Shown here: piece by piece, positions 60,049-63,528 of the stretch | Layout of the letters: every line of letters begins with the position of its first letter | Numbering within the stretch: position 1 is the stretch's first letter | From: Roseovarius sp. | GTDB taxonomy: Bacteria > Pseudomonadota > Alphaproteobacteria > Rhodobacterales > Rhodobacteraceae | Length of the DNA stretch: 64,000 nucleotides | Direction: 5' to 3' | NCBI GenBank assembly: GCA_014359765.1 | Contig: JACIYT010000005.1 | Coordinates: forward strand, 1 to 64,000 | The notes under the pieces: model-generated | Told to the model about the DNA's origin: nothing | Seen by the model: the letters and a program-made list of their open reading frames with translations, nothing else | The model's database searches: none | Program-made: the position numbers and the translations under genes

Positions 60049-60450
60049 ATGGACCTGATTTCCCGACTCGATCACCAGCGTGGCCTGTCACTGACCGCTC
60101 GTGAATGCCTGCGCGCGCTTGAGGGTGAGTTCGCGGTGCAAGGGTTCGATATGACCATCCGAAAGCGTGGTCACTTTGGCGACGTGTTGCGTTGGAGCCG
60201 GGACGGAAAGCCTTGGTTCGATGCCCTTCCAGCTCAGCATTGGGTGCTGTTCTATCTGCACAAGGTCGCATCGCGCGCGCACGGGCTCGACTATTCGACG
60301 ATATGCGGGCAGCTTCCCCATGCGGTTGAGCGCCGCGACCTCGTCGTGAAAGTCCGCCTCCATGACAGGGGCCAAGCGCTTGTCATGGCGGCGCTAAGCA
60401 ATGACGCCGTGGCCGGGAGTCGTCGTAGGGCACCCGTGCGTTATTCTTGA
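60049..60450 (+). CDS. Hypothetical protein, 133 residues
   Basis: ATG 60049 has GCGAGGA about 9 bases upstream. The sequence is protein-like: MDLISRLDHQRGLSLTAREC, then LRALEGEFAVQGFDMTIRKR, GHFGDVLRWSRDGKPWFDAL and PAQHWVLFYLHKVASRAHGL. Its third-codon positions are less G/C rich than those of neighbouring rpoD, which suggests foreign origin. The end, after ALSNDAV, turns Arg-rich. I recognise no family; a spurious frame is possible. Confidence 0.45.
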   Translation: MDLISRLDHQRGLSLTARECLRALEGEFAVQGFDMTIRKRGHFGDVLRWSRDGKPWFDALPAQHWVLFYLHKVASRAHGLDYSTICGQLPHAVERRDLVVKVRLHDRGQALVMAALSNDAVAGSRRRAPVRYS

Positions 60451-60456
60451 TTTCCC

Positions 60457-60472
60457 GTACGCGATCACGTAC
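60457..60472. promoter_or_regulatory. Palindromic operator upstream of yefM-yoeB
   Basis: GTACGCGATCACGTAC is a 16-base dyad with one mismatched pair, ending 9 bases before the antitoxin ATG. YefM-type antitoxins autoregulate by binding palindromes with a TGTACA-like core, and ACGTACAT here fits that. Inferred operator. Confidence 0.55.
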
Positions 60473-60481
60473 ATTGACCCC

Positions 60482-60754
60482 ATGAAACACACAACCTCTA
60501 CCGATCTGCGCAAGAGCCTCTCGGCCATGATGGACCGGGTGAACGAGGATCACGAGCCGGTCCTTGTCACCCGTGCCAAGGGCAAGCCGGTGGTGATGAT
60601 CTCGCTCGAGGATTACCACGCGATGGACGAGACCGCCTATCTGCTGGCCACACCGGCCAACAGGGCGGCGCTGATGGCGGCGATCACCTCCACCGATCCG
60701 TCGCGGATGGTCGAGGTCTCGATCGATGACCTGCGGGCGCTGGAGGGAGAGTGA
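60482..60754 (+). CDS. yefM: YefM/Phd-family antitoxin
   Basis: 90 residues. N-terminal DNA-binding/dimerisation half (STDLRKSLSAMMDRVNEDHE, PVLVTRAKGKPVVMISLEDY) and a C-terminal half that wraps the toxin (MDETAYLLATPANRAALMAA). This is the standard YefM layout. Its stop overlaps the toxin start by 4 bases (GTGA). It neutralises YoeB and represses the operon. Confidence 0.93.
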   Translation: MKHTTSTDLRKSLSAMMDRVNEDHEPVLVTRAKGKPVVMISLEDYHAMDETAYLLATPANRAALMAAITSTDPSRMVEVSIDDLRALEGE

Positions 60755-61005
60755 GGCTGGCGTTCCACGCGGAGGCATGGGCGCAATACCTGCATTGGCA
60801 GCAGACGGACAAGGCGACCTTGCGAAAGATCAACAGGCTGATCGAGGAATGCCTGCGCCATCCGTTCGAGGGCACGGGCAAGCCCGAGGCCCTGCGCGGC
60901 GACCTGTCCGGCTTCTGGTCGCGCCGCATCGACCGCGAGCATCGGCTGGTCTATCGCGTGGTGAACGATGCCCTGGAAATCGTGCAATGCCGCTATCATT
61001 ACTAG
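60751..61005 (+). CDS. yoeB: YoeB ribosome-dependent mRNA interferase toxin
   Basis: 84 residues, the usual length. RelE/YoeB fold with GKPEALRGDLSGFWSRRID, EHRLVYRVV and the C-terminal CRYHY that carries the catalytic His-Tyr. The Glu and Arg catalytic positions appear conserved in the KPE..L and EHRLVYR parts. The GTG start at 60751 overlaps the yefM stop. It looks intact. Confidence 0.93.
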   Translation: MRLAFHAEAWAQYLHWQQTDKATLRKINRLIEECLRHPFEGTGKPEALRGDLSGFWSRRIDREHRLVYRVVNDALEIVQCRYHY

Positions 61006-61063: not shown

Positions 61064-61223
61064 ATGCGGGGGCGGGCATCTGTTGCGATTGCACTCAGCG
61101 ATGAGGAGCGCGGTTTTCTGGAAGCGCAGTTGCGCAGGCACAAGGCGGCGCGGTCACTGTCCGACAGGTGCCGGATCGTGTTGAGGTGCGCTGACGGTCT
61201 GACCAGCAAAGAGATCGCCACCG
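61064..61223 (+). pseudogene. Truncated IS630-family transposase (N-terminal fragment)
   Basis: From ATG 61064 the frame reads MRGRASVAIALSDEERGFLE, then AQLRRHKAARSLSDRCRIVL and CADGLTSKEIATE, the helix-turn-helix start of an IS630-type transposase. After 61223 the sequence is IS5-family, not IS630. The DDE part is lost. The junction shares AAATC with the joined element, so a short-homology deletion is likely. Confidence 0.75.
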
Positions 61224-61655
61224 AAATCAAGCCATTGGGCGCTCGCGCGGCGGATTGACCACCAAGATCGTTGCTTTGGTCGACGCGCTCGGGAACCTGG
61301 CCAACTTCGTTCTCCTGCCCGGTCAGGCTCACGACATGAAGGGCGTCGAACCGCTCATTGATGGCGTTGCCTTCGATGCTCTCTTGGCCGACAAGGCGTT
61401 CGATGCCGATTGGCTTCTCACAGAACTCGATGCGCGCGGTGCCACCGCGATCATCCCACCGAAAGCGAACCGCAAGTTCCTGCGCGATTACGATAAACAC
61501 GCCTATAAGTGGCGGCACTCGATCGAGAATTTCTTCGCAAAGATCAAAGAATTCAGAGCCATAGCGACCCGCTACGAAAAGACAGCGTCCAGCTACGCCG
61601 CCAACTGGCATCTCGCGGCTGGCATCATCGCTTCACGATGAATGTCCACAGGCCC
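61224..61655 (+). mobile_element. 3' half of an IS5-family element, lacking its left end
   Basis: Bases 61224-61286 are identical to 63938-64000 of the other copy. The frame from 61255 reads LTTKIVALVDALGNLANFVL, then LPGQAHDMKGVEPLIDGVAF, LLADKAFDADWLL and KWRHSIENFFAKIKEFRAIA, the catalytic DDE end (D and E visible) of an IS5 transposase. It ends TGAATGTCCACAGGCCC at 61639-61655, the exact reverse of the left end at 63529. The 5' half and orfA are missing, so it cannot move by itself. Nothing else is seen up to 61774. Confidence 0.88.
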
Positions 61656-61774
61656 TAATTACCTTTGTAAATTCCGCAGGTTAGGAGGATTTCGGGTGCC
61701 AAACGTCGGCTTCGTGTCGCACGGAGAAGGCGCAAACCGTTGGGAACGAACGGAAATCCTTTTTGCTGCGGCGG

Positions 61775-62329
61775 TCATTGCCGCTCCGGAGGCCACGGGC
61801 CCGGCGCACAGGGGCGCTCGAACCACGCCCGGTCGCGGAGGGCATCGTTGTCGACGTTTCGCCATGCACAAGGCGGCAAGAAAGGTGGGCGCCCGTCGTC
61901 GAGCTGGAGGCCGGGGCCGACCCAGCCGGTAAAGTATCCGTTGCAGCCCCCGCCGGGTCTGCTGAGGCCGCTGATGTCCATCGCATCAGAGTAGTCCACC
62001 GGCAGCCTGCTGTCGGTCCCGGCGTCGTAGAGGCCGCTGAACACGCGGTCGTATGACTGCACGAAAACGTAGCGGTCGTTGAAGCAGACGAATTCCACAT
62101 CGCGCGCCAGCCGGGTCGGGCCGTTCGCCGCGAACAGATCCCAGCGGCCGTGGCGGTTCCAGTCGAACTCACGGCTCAACTGCATCCCATTTGGCAGGGT
62201 CACGGACTCCTGGGGGCTCATCGCCCACCGTGCACCGGCGACCAATGCCCAGAGGAGGAGGAGCCCGGCCAGACCGAGCAGCGCGTATCGGGCAAGCGCG
62301 CCCGGGAGGGATCGCGGCCGAGACGTCAC
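61775..62329 (-). CDS. Single-span membrane protein, candidate immunity protein for the MuF-domain protein
   Basis: 184 residues. One transmembrane segment near the N-terminus (ALLGLAGLLLLWALVAGARW), then an extracytoplasmic domain with four cysteines (FVCFN, GGGCNG, PPCAWRN, ERPCAPG) that could pair into two disulfides. Its ATG overlaps the stop of the MuF-domain gene by 4 bases, so expression is coupled. I recognise no named family. Toxin-then-immunity order, coupling and membrane anchoring fit an immunity role, which is inference only. Confidence 0.6.
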   Translation of the reverse strand: MTSRPRSLPGALARYALLGLAGLLLLWALVAGARWAMSPQESVTLPNGMQLSREFDWNRHGRWDLFAANGPTRLARDVEFVCFNDRYVFVQSYDRVFSGLYDAGTDSRLPVDYSDAMDISGLSRPGGGCNGYFTGWVGPGLQLDDGRPPFLPPCAWRNVDNDALRDRAWFERPCAPGPWPPERQ

Positions 62330-63111
62330 CGCCCACCGACCCCGCCGTACTCGCTCCTCCCGGCGTCCTTCATCACCTCGGCGGAGAAACGGGCCGTCCA
62401 GTTGCCGGTGATCGGATACGGCGTGCCGCCGGCCTCGACGCCGATATCGAGCGGGTCCTCGAAAATGTCGGTGAACTCGAACGTGGTCTCGCCGGTGATC
62501 CGAAGCATCGCGCCACGGTCGTCGACGCGACCGGCCAAGCGTCCGCGAACCACACCATCACCATGCGAGAATGCGACATCGCCGAAATCATACGGAGCGC
62601 CGAAGTCGTAGCTGAGCGCGCCCGCGCCAGACGCGCGCGCTGCATCCGCGATCTGGTCCGCGAGGCGGCGGAACGCGCCCTCGGTCTCATCGCCATAGGC
62701 GTATTGCTCGGCAATCTCTCGCAGGTGTCCGATCTCCAGCAGGGTCACCGCGCGCCCGCCGCCACTATAGTAGTGGCGAACGAAATCGCGATTGTTCCAC
62801 CGATCATAGCTCGACGCGAGGCTCGTGGCGACCTCGTGAAATCCGAACTCGGTCTTGCCAGCGACGAAGGGGACCGCTTTACAGCGGCAGTTGTAATCCT
62901 CGCCAGGATGCCCGGTGGCGGGCGGATCGGACCACGAGAACACGCGGCCGTCGTTCATCCGATGCGACCGGCGCACGCGCTCGTCGCGCCGGGTGCGCCA
63001 GACATATTGATCCGTGATCCCAGCCTGTTTCAGCGACAGGCGGATCGGCGTTCCCCGGCGAAGGTATTCAGCGAAGGCCGTCCGGTAGGCCTCGGTGTAG
63101 GTGATGGTCAT
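62326..63111 (-). CDS. MuF (phage head morphogenesis)-domain protein, candidate polymorphic toxin
   Basis: 261 residues. Residues about 22-83 carry the C-terminal signature of phage Mu F-like minor head proteins: YVWRTRRDERVRRSHRMNDG, VFSWSDPPATGHPGEDYNCR, then CKAVPF. The remaining 175 or so residues (FHEVATSLASSYDRWNNRDF; FTDIFEDPLDIGVEAGGTPY; ITGNWTARFSA) match no structural domain I know. A MuF domain followed by a variable C-terminal domain is the pattern of phage-borne MuF polymorphic toxins. The N-terminus is short, so it may be a remnant. The start at 63111 has only a weak AGAGG. No other head genes are nearby. Confidence 0.65.
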   Translation of the reverse strand: MTITYTEAYRTAFAEYLRRGTPIRLSLKQAGITDQYVWRTRRDERVRRSHRMNDGRVFSWSDPPATGHPGEDYNCRCKAVPFVAGKTEFGFHEVATSLASSYDRWNNRDFVRHYYSGGGRAVTLLEIGHLREIAEQYAYGDETEGAFRRLADQIADAARASGAGALSYDFGAPYDFGDVAFSHGDGVVRGRLAGRVDDRGAMLRITGETTFEFTDIFEDPLDIGVEAGGTPYPITGNWTARFSAEVMKDAGRSEYGGVGGR

Positions 63112-63190
63112 GATGGAGGGCCTCTGCGGTCGGCCGCACGATCATCGACGATTTGACTAAAGATCGCGTTAACCGCCCGCGCGATGCCGG

Positions 63191-63528
63191 TCACCCCAGC
63201 AGCTTGGCCTCGACCTCGGCCATGGCGCTCTGGTGGTCGGGCGACGGGAACAGGTGGCCGTAGCGCTCCATGGTCATCTGGATCGAGGAATGGCCCGCGA
63301 AGGTCATGATCTCCTTGATCGAGAAGCCCTGCTCGATCCAGAGCGACACGGCGAAGTGGCGCAGGTCGTGCCAGCGCAGTTTCGCGCCGACCTCCTCCTG
63401 CAGTTTCCGGAACTGGGACTGCGTGTTGGTGTGCTGGAGGATCCCGCCCCGCGGCGCGGGGAACACCAGCCCGAGATCGCTTTTCGGGCAGCGGAGTTTC
63501 CAGCGGCGCAGGACGTTCAGCACCATTA
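63191..63528 (-). pseudogene. C-terminal part of a tyrosine recombinase (phage integrase), cut by an IS5-family insertion
   Basis: The minus strand reads LNVLRRWKLRCPKSDLGLVF, PAPRGG, then LRWHDLRHFAVSLWIEQGFS and IKEIMTFAGHSSIQMTMERY, and ends AKLLG. The HxxR (HDLR), the following His and the catalytic Tyr are intact. The 5' part is lost where the IS left end starts at 63529; it should continue past the other side of the IS, outside the window. It reads toward the MuF gene. Confidence 0.85.

Follow-up and report, generated by a model that had tools for sequence, protein, structure and literature searches.

The 64,000-nucleotide stretch analysed here (positions 1 to 64,000 of contig JACIYT010000005.1 of Roseovarius sp., assembly GCA_014359765.1; hereafter the window) carries two overlapping genes that constitute a conserved two-gene module. 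The first encodes a protein with part of a MuF domain at its N-terminus (half-MuF) and a C-terminal domain (CTD) that is a candidate toxin. The second encodes a membrane-anchored partner. On balance, we favour reading the pair as a prophage-borne polymorphic-toxin module, in which a candidate envelope-acting toxin, possibly of colicin-M-like fold, is accompanied by an anchored immunity protein located in the periplasm. The open reading frames (ORFs) and their parts are as follows.

62326-63111, minus strand: half-MuF plus CTD protein, candidate toxin, 261 residues (from the ORF list, Pfam and NCBIfam matches and relatives)
62875-63036, minus strand: C-terminal half of the MuF domain, residues 26-79 (PF04233 positions 56-111 of 112)
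62347-62814, minus strand: CTD, about residues 100-255, candidate toxin domain (from motifs conserved across relatives)
61775-62329, minus strand: partner, candidate immunity protein, 184 residues, with an N-terminal membrane anchor and four cysteines
62231-62287, minus strand: predicted membrane span of the partner, residues 15-33 (Kyte-Doolittle)
62326-62329, minus strand: 4-base overlap between the toxin stop and the GTG start of the partner (exact in 22 of the 32 partner-positive loci)

The initial annotation had described a 261-residue ORF overlapped by four bases by a 184-residue, single-span ORF with four cysteines, and had proposed that the two genes are coupled. Both ORFs are present as described, are intact, and the coupling was borne out. 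An ORF matching the partner profile (E ≤ 1e-5) starts beside the CTD stop in 32 of 45 CTD frames, a set that is non-redundant over an 80-residue stretch and includes fragments. Fifteen of these 32 ORFs are rows of the profile itself; 17 are not, two of them being copies or near-copies of rows. The other 13 frames comprise two with weak partner matches (E 1.8e-4 and 0.019), seven with an unscored ORF only and four with none within 160 bases. We also searched 36 genomes with the partner profile: 12 CTD-positive and 19 CTD-negative genomes of the same family and five CTD-positive genomes of the class. Ten of the 12 CTD-positive family genomes matched, each next to the CTD, versus none of the 19 CTD-negative ones. 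The two that were missed, G005 and G053, carry partner-like ORFs according to a local profile (E 5.8e-6 and 1.8e-4). Among the five class genomes, only G347 matched, weakly, 1.3 and 3 kb past the CTD. Finally, three IMG/VR contigs carry the toxin gene, with residues 1-259 covered at 88-92% identity. Together with the conservation of the gene pair, these relatives indicate that the pair is more than a chance arrangement.

The partner consists of an Arg-rich N-terminus, one hydrophobic span (Kyte-Doolittle 2.12 at residues 15-33) and a soluble domain. Its cysteines lie at residues 82, 129, 154 and 174, and two are kept in at least 90% of the alignment rows. According to the positive-inside rule, the Arg-rich side of a span stays inside, which predicts that the soluble domain is periplasmic. 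The predicted topology of the partner thus suggests an envelope side, in line with the earlier proposal. The partner belonged to no family in Pfam or, for the window copy, in NCBIfam, and PDB sequence searches yielded nothing under E 0.7. A profile match to the PDB entry of Tsi3 at E 0.74 was treated as chance, and a relationship to that protein was rejected. Some loci vary in this part of the module. Two toxin genes line up with three partner-like matches in L019 (2467-7106), an arrangement of tandem modules with an extra immunity-like gene, and L020 has two partner-like matches behind one toxin. In L047 and L048, which were found in the phylum search and lie outside the class of the window, the CTD is followed by a short ORF unrelated to the partner. 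By eye, these ORFs are lipoprotein-like, with a cysteine after a hydrophobic start, and are perhaps lipoprotein immunity proteins.

At the N-terminus of the toxin, Phage_Mu_F (PF04233) matched with an E-value of 1.5e-13 and 51.9 bits (cut-off 29.6), and NCBIfam TIGR01641 (SPP1 gp7) matched above its cut-off at residues 26-82, profile positions 52-108 of 109. Since both profiles were matched over their second half only, the toxin has just the C-terminal half of the MuF domain. The MuF signature noted initially is therefore genuine, as half a domain. The same half-length PF04233 match, from position 50-58 on, was found in seven of seven viral records. In PHROGs, many head families matched the MuF half, two of them extending to residues 108 and 119.

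Beyond about residue 85, neither the window protein alone nor 13 relatives matched a Pfam or NCBIfam family, and PADLOC matched neither window copy, toxin or partner. About 160 residues after the MuF half are thus without a Pfam, NCBIfam or PADLOC family, and by sequence the locus is a half-MuF polymorphic-toxin-like pair of two families that appear to fall outside Pfam and, with the partner represented by its window copy in NCBIfam and both proteins by theirs in PADLOC, outside those collections as well. A single Pfam match of one relative's CTD at E 0.027 was regarded as chance. The profile phrog_31798, of unknown function, spans the CTD (E 5.1e-6, residues 109-248); it was found in two of 279 genomes, namely that of the window and one that matched another part of the profile.

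In tblastn searches, none of 50,697 phage records matched the CTD at E ≤ 10, so that no end-to-end alignment with phage head proteins was found among them. Of the 339 phage records that the whole toxin matched, none covered 80% of its length, and the 30 listed matches do not extend past residue 87. With no phage match to the CTD and the 30 listed matches confined to the MuF part, we ruled out an ordinary minor head protein. By its sequence, the CTD appears distinct from phage head proteins, and it provides the non-structural C-terminal extension that is expected of a MuF polymorphic toxin.

Across its relatives, the CTD conserves the motifs HY-x2-G-x-G, [DE]-x-[FYW]-x-D-[PV] and GGTPY-x-I, the second being represented in the window by D215, F217, D219 and P220. 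The acidic motif occurs in 65 of 71 CTD frames, which include redundant loci and fragments, versus 16 of 4,756 other frames.

The CTD recurs mostly in Rhodobacteraceae-type genomes. A contig scan returned 14 CTD loci, 12 of them with Rhodobacterales-type record titles, from which their taxonomy was taken. When whole genomes were searched, those with the CTD numbered 12 of 295 in the same family, six of 385 in the class and five of 398 in the phylum, each count including the genome of the window; three of the matches in the phylum set were weak (E 3.1e-7 to 1.5e-4). Further viral scans found L066-L071, of which L066 repeats L032. Another viral scan confirmed nothing, and a third recovered L071 together with eight contigs that share the MuF part only and encode full-length MuF proteins with another C-terminus or none. 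In L072-L078, a full-length MuF protein has a different C-terminal domain (ADP-ribosyltransferase-like by eye only) and is followed by a 93-residue ORF. In a plasmid collection, three records matched the CTD, namely a Roseobacter plasmid, one with a Xenorhabdus ORF that lacks MuF and one whose E-value was 9. The CTD of L041 had one match in phages, at E 5, and that of L047 had no match in the plasmid collection (both by tblastn). In L043 (1489-2493, minus strand), PG_binding_1, half-MuF and CTD are joined in one protein, and no partner ORF was found downstream.

We then compared the CTD with colicin M. Rows for colicin M head both structure lists, covering 96-136 residues, versus 74-94 for methyltransferase and capping-protein rows. 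A Pfam search with PF14859 in 198 genomes around G934 found four colicin M sequences, of which we used three, L080, L081 and L082; L083, which is short (39 profile positions), was dropped. Using hhalign, the CTD profile scored 22.4 (local) against the alignment of the three sequences, a score reached by one of 300 column shuffles, and 22.7 (global), which none of 300 shuffles reached (maximum 10.9). Against single sequences, local scores were 26.9 for L080, 26.2 for L081 and 14.2 for L082, two of the three exceeding all 298 decoy ORFs (maximum 22.8). The corresponding global scores were 19.3 for L081, 9.6 for L082 and 3.2 for L080, with a decoy maximum of 13.4. The local signal sits on DFVxHYxxGxGR, and blocks of the HY-x2-G-x-G, D-x-aromatic and G-x-P-Y-x-I types follow in the same order in the CTD and in L080 and L081. 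A combined motif pattern was found in 47 of the 71 CTD frames and in two (strict) or three (loose) of the 4,756 others, all colicin M homologues; as the pattern was drawn up after both families had been seen, its specificity is descriptive only.

Several results weigh against a colicin-M-like fold. The fold comparison gave low Z-scores and low predicted local distance difference test (pLDDT) values, coverage above 100 residues is also reached by some unrelated rows further down, 8bnz and 9jdi among them, and pore-forming proteins are among the weak rows. The probabilities that hhalign itself assigned were low (0.07-19%). PF14859 matched neither the window protein (E up to 1) nor 13 relatives (E up to 10). 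Moreover, DxYD(x5)HR, the published catalytic motif of colicin M (PMC8469651; this and the other papers cited are represented by excerpts), occurred in none of the 71 CTD frames even with a relaxed pattern, and we therefore do not class the CTD as colicin M. ColM domains with deviating motifs exist, one of them with a presumed loss of activity (PMC5821083), so that substitution of the motif does not settle function. Other searches were silent: no PDB sequence came below E 0.5 with either the toxin or the CTD profile, BFVD structures gave no match at E ≤ 0.001, and PF14859 was found in none of 299 genomes of the phylum, where the positive control was silent too.

Set against the colicin M family (colicin M, pectocins M1 and M2, syringacin M and PaeM, with Cmi-type immunity; PMC8469651, PMC5821083), the pair thus has colicin M as the best structural rows of its CTD, and its partner resembles Cmi, described there as a membrane-anchored periplasmic protein with two cysteines. 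It differs in the catalytic motif and PF14859, in that no receptor or translocation domains were seen, and in being borne by a half-MuF on a prophage. DUF3289/DUF943, a type VI secretion system (T6SS) effector-immunity pair and proposed colicin M homologue (PMC11148199, PMC12135965), also combines periplasmic toxin action with an adjacent immunity gene. It is delivered by a T6SS rather than a phage, and DUF3289 (PF11692) was not supported as the nearest family, as it gave no Pfam match and hhalign scores of at most 16.3, within the decoys; the comparison is insensitive here, DUF3289 versus colicin M failing in it too.

In the mechanism that we propose, the half-MuF would serve as carrier, the CTD as toxin and the product of the coupled gene as immunity protein. 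We are fairly confident of these candidate toxin and immunity roles. The toxin would damage the cell envelope from the periplasmic side, a site of action that the topology of the partner makes probable. Colicin M is a lipid II hydrolase. A colicin-M-like fold, at which the fold and profile comparisons hint faintly and which we judge to be an evenly balanced call, would have as its target a lipid-linked precursor of the cell wall, for example lipid II; the prediction of lipid II as substrate is tentative. The partner would be held by its inner-membrane anchor. Its main domain, probably with a disulfide, would face the periplasm and block the toxin there. As guesses, phage lysis would presumably release the toxin, which the half-MuF may attach to a virion.

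The likeness to colicin M might instead reflect a common beta-sheet arrangement, the CTD being an unrelated envelope toxin, such as a pore former or lipid binder, within a genuine toxin-immunity pair. The low Z and pLDDT values, the missing catalytic motif and the pore-forming proteins among the weak rows would suit this explanation, as would a membrane-anchored partner if the target were the membrane. We nevertheless consider it unlikely, given that colicin M rows lead both lists with the longer coverage and that two of three colicin M sequences score above every decoy.

The pair was also compared with MuF polymorphic toxins (Jamet et al. 2017, PMC5576092; Apk2, PMC12226406; Bxa, PMC11699363). 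Like these, it has a MuF-derived N-terminus, a C-terminal extension, a small coupled downstream gene and a temperate-phage context, although the 184 residues of the partner exceed the limit of <150 used in PMC5576092. Unlike them, it has half a MuF domain in place of the full N-terminal domain, a membrane partner and a predicted envelope target, the toxin domains named there being nuclease, metallopeptidase, ADP-ribosyltransferase, RelA-like/alarmone and deaminase domains. It also often lies beside an integrase and not behind a portal gene, whereas MuF toxins are described in the head or packaging module (PMC5576092, PMC12226406, PMC11699363, PMC3482391). As the pair lacks a defining feature of MuF polymorphic toxins and one of colicin M, it appears to be a variant of its own, although it would act in the manner of the former and perhaps of the latter. 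Many proteobacterial MuF C-terminal extensions were left unassigned in PMC5576092. In PMC12419801, MuF is among the delivery domains of Lipocone polymorphic toxins, a superfamily tied to lipid and cell-wall targets; by this description the window pair is similar, and an envelope or lipid target has thus been proposed earlier for MuF-linked toxins. That paper also contains a Colicin M-like toxin whose immunity protein is BamE-like and anchored in the membrane; in this toxin the N-terminus is Cystatin-like, MuF being linked to Lipocone domains instead. No MuF protein carrying a colicin-M-like domain was found in the literature searched, outside which lay most subscription journals and bioRxiv preprints.

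A fuller proposal, which we regard as rather doubtful, is that temperate phages of Alphaproteobacteria carry a half-MuF toxin at their integrase end that would destroy periplasmic lipid-linked precursors through a colicin-M-like fold with a D-x-F-x-D-P active site replacing DxYD(x5)HR, a new class of anchored immunity protein protecting the lysogen. If true, this would be the first MuF-linked toxin of the colicin M type and would link phage-carried toxins to bacteriocins. A half-carrier version, often placed near lysogeny genes, bears on how MuF toxins travel and what they target, as it separates trafficking from capsid assembly. A small pair apparently aimed at the envelope is directly testable.

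The module is moved by prophages and is also found in small remnants, with the partner on the envelope side. In the window, it lies in such a remnant.

63191-63526, minus strand: C-terminal fragment of a prophage tyrosine integrase, cut at 63526 by an insertion sequence (IS)
61660-63526, no strand: entire remnant, representing the end of a prophage nearest its integrase, 1.9 kb (limits from DNA homology)

Compared with nine related loci, the left limit of DNA homology falls at 61660-61713 in eight and the right limit at 63526 in six; in the remaining three, right-hand homology stops before 63526. The remnant is bracketed by two direct copies of one IS (DDE/DUF4096 type). The left piece (61224-61658, 435 bases) shares 99.8% identity with a stretch of the right copy; the latter begins at 63526 and ends near contig position 64372. 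The left copy is truncated, and by eye a transposase-like start of another type (ORF 61064-61258) is fused to it.

The earlier description of the pair as lying beside an integrase with no other head genes was upheld: the integrase is the fragment above, the genome of the window contains neither a PF05136 portal nor another PF04233 match, and neither the terminase (GpA-type) nor the integrase of L001 had a match in the next 19 kb. In ten of the 45 frames, window included, an L001-type integrase precedes the toxin start by about 80-100 bases. G1207 (24 kb) and G1208 (22 kb), which may be fragments, match PF04233 nowhere but in the half-MuF, and their portal is about 10 kb away from it. Larger relatives thus also have the pair by the integrase, L069 and L070 being exceptions, which indicates that it was cargo before the prophage decayed. 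The proposal that the pair is cargo beside an integrase accordingly stands, except that decay did not leave it as such. Other positions occur. L069 has the gene behind Phage_attach and DUF6441 and L070 behind DUF6441, so that a head-tail position also exists. L067 has a different integrase upstream on the opposite strand, L017 and L021 adjoin metabolic genes with no phage genes directly upstream, and the upstream ORFs of L014 and L015 are host-like by eye.

That the pair is a decaying remnant without function in this genome is an explanation to which we give little weight. The prophage is down to about 1.9 kb between two IS copies, and a second, degraded half-MuF/CTD gene fragment, 71% identical over residues 57-114, lies in the same genome (L005; G000 contig C1, 117784-117957). 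Yet both ORFs are intact, and the ratio of nonsynonymous to synonymous substitution rates (dN/dS) of the toxin gene is 0.14-0.20 versus six relatives (two more were saturated), as among the relatives (0.13-0.19, five pairs). The integrase fragment has higher values (0.20-0.37, five comparisons) than its relatives (0.04-0.16, four pairs), and those of the partner are slightly raised (0.21-0.37, eight comparisons, versus 0.23-0.29). These ratios, which include substitutions predating the decay, fit a toxin gene under constraint and a decaying integrase, and lend weak support to the suggestion that selection retained the pair.

Genes adjoining an integrase are often lysogenic-conversion genes. 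A structural or injection protein of the phage, accompanied by a small membrane protein and acting for example in superinfection exclusion at the lysogen envelope and involving no toxin, would suit such a position, MuF being a capsid-associated domain, as well as the gene order of L069 and L070, and is nonetheless quite improbable, since the free-standing CTD, the PG_binding fusion and the metabolic neighbours of L017 and L021 fit a mobile toxin cassette and in L009 (80.4 versus 92.3% identity) and L010 (81.5 versus 89.5%) the partner differs more from the window copy than the toxin does, though the two are equal in L011 (90.8% for both).

Beside the IS and the remnant, the window also encodes a YefM/YoeB-type toxin-antitoxin pair (60428-61005, plus strand; PF02604 and PF06769), which lies downstream of an rpoD-like sigma factor gene (by eye).
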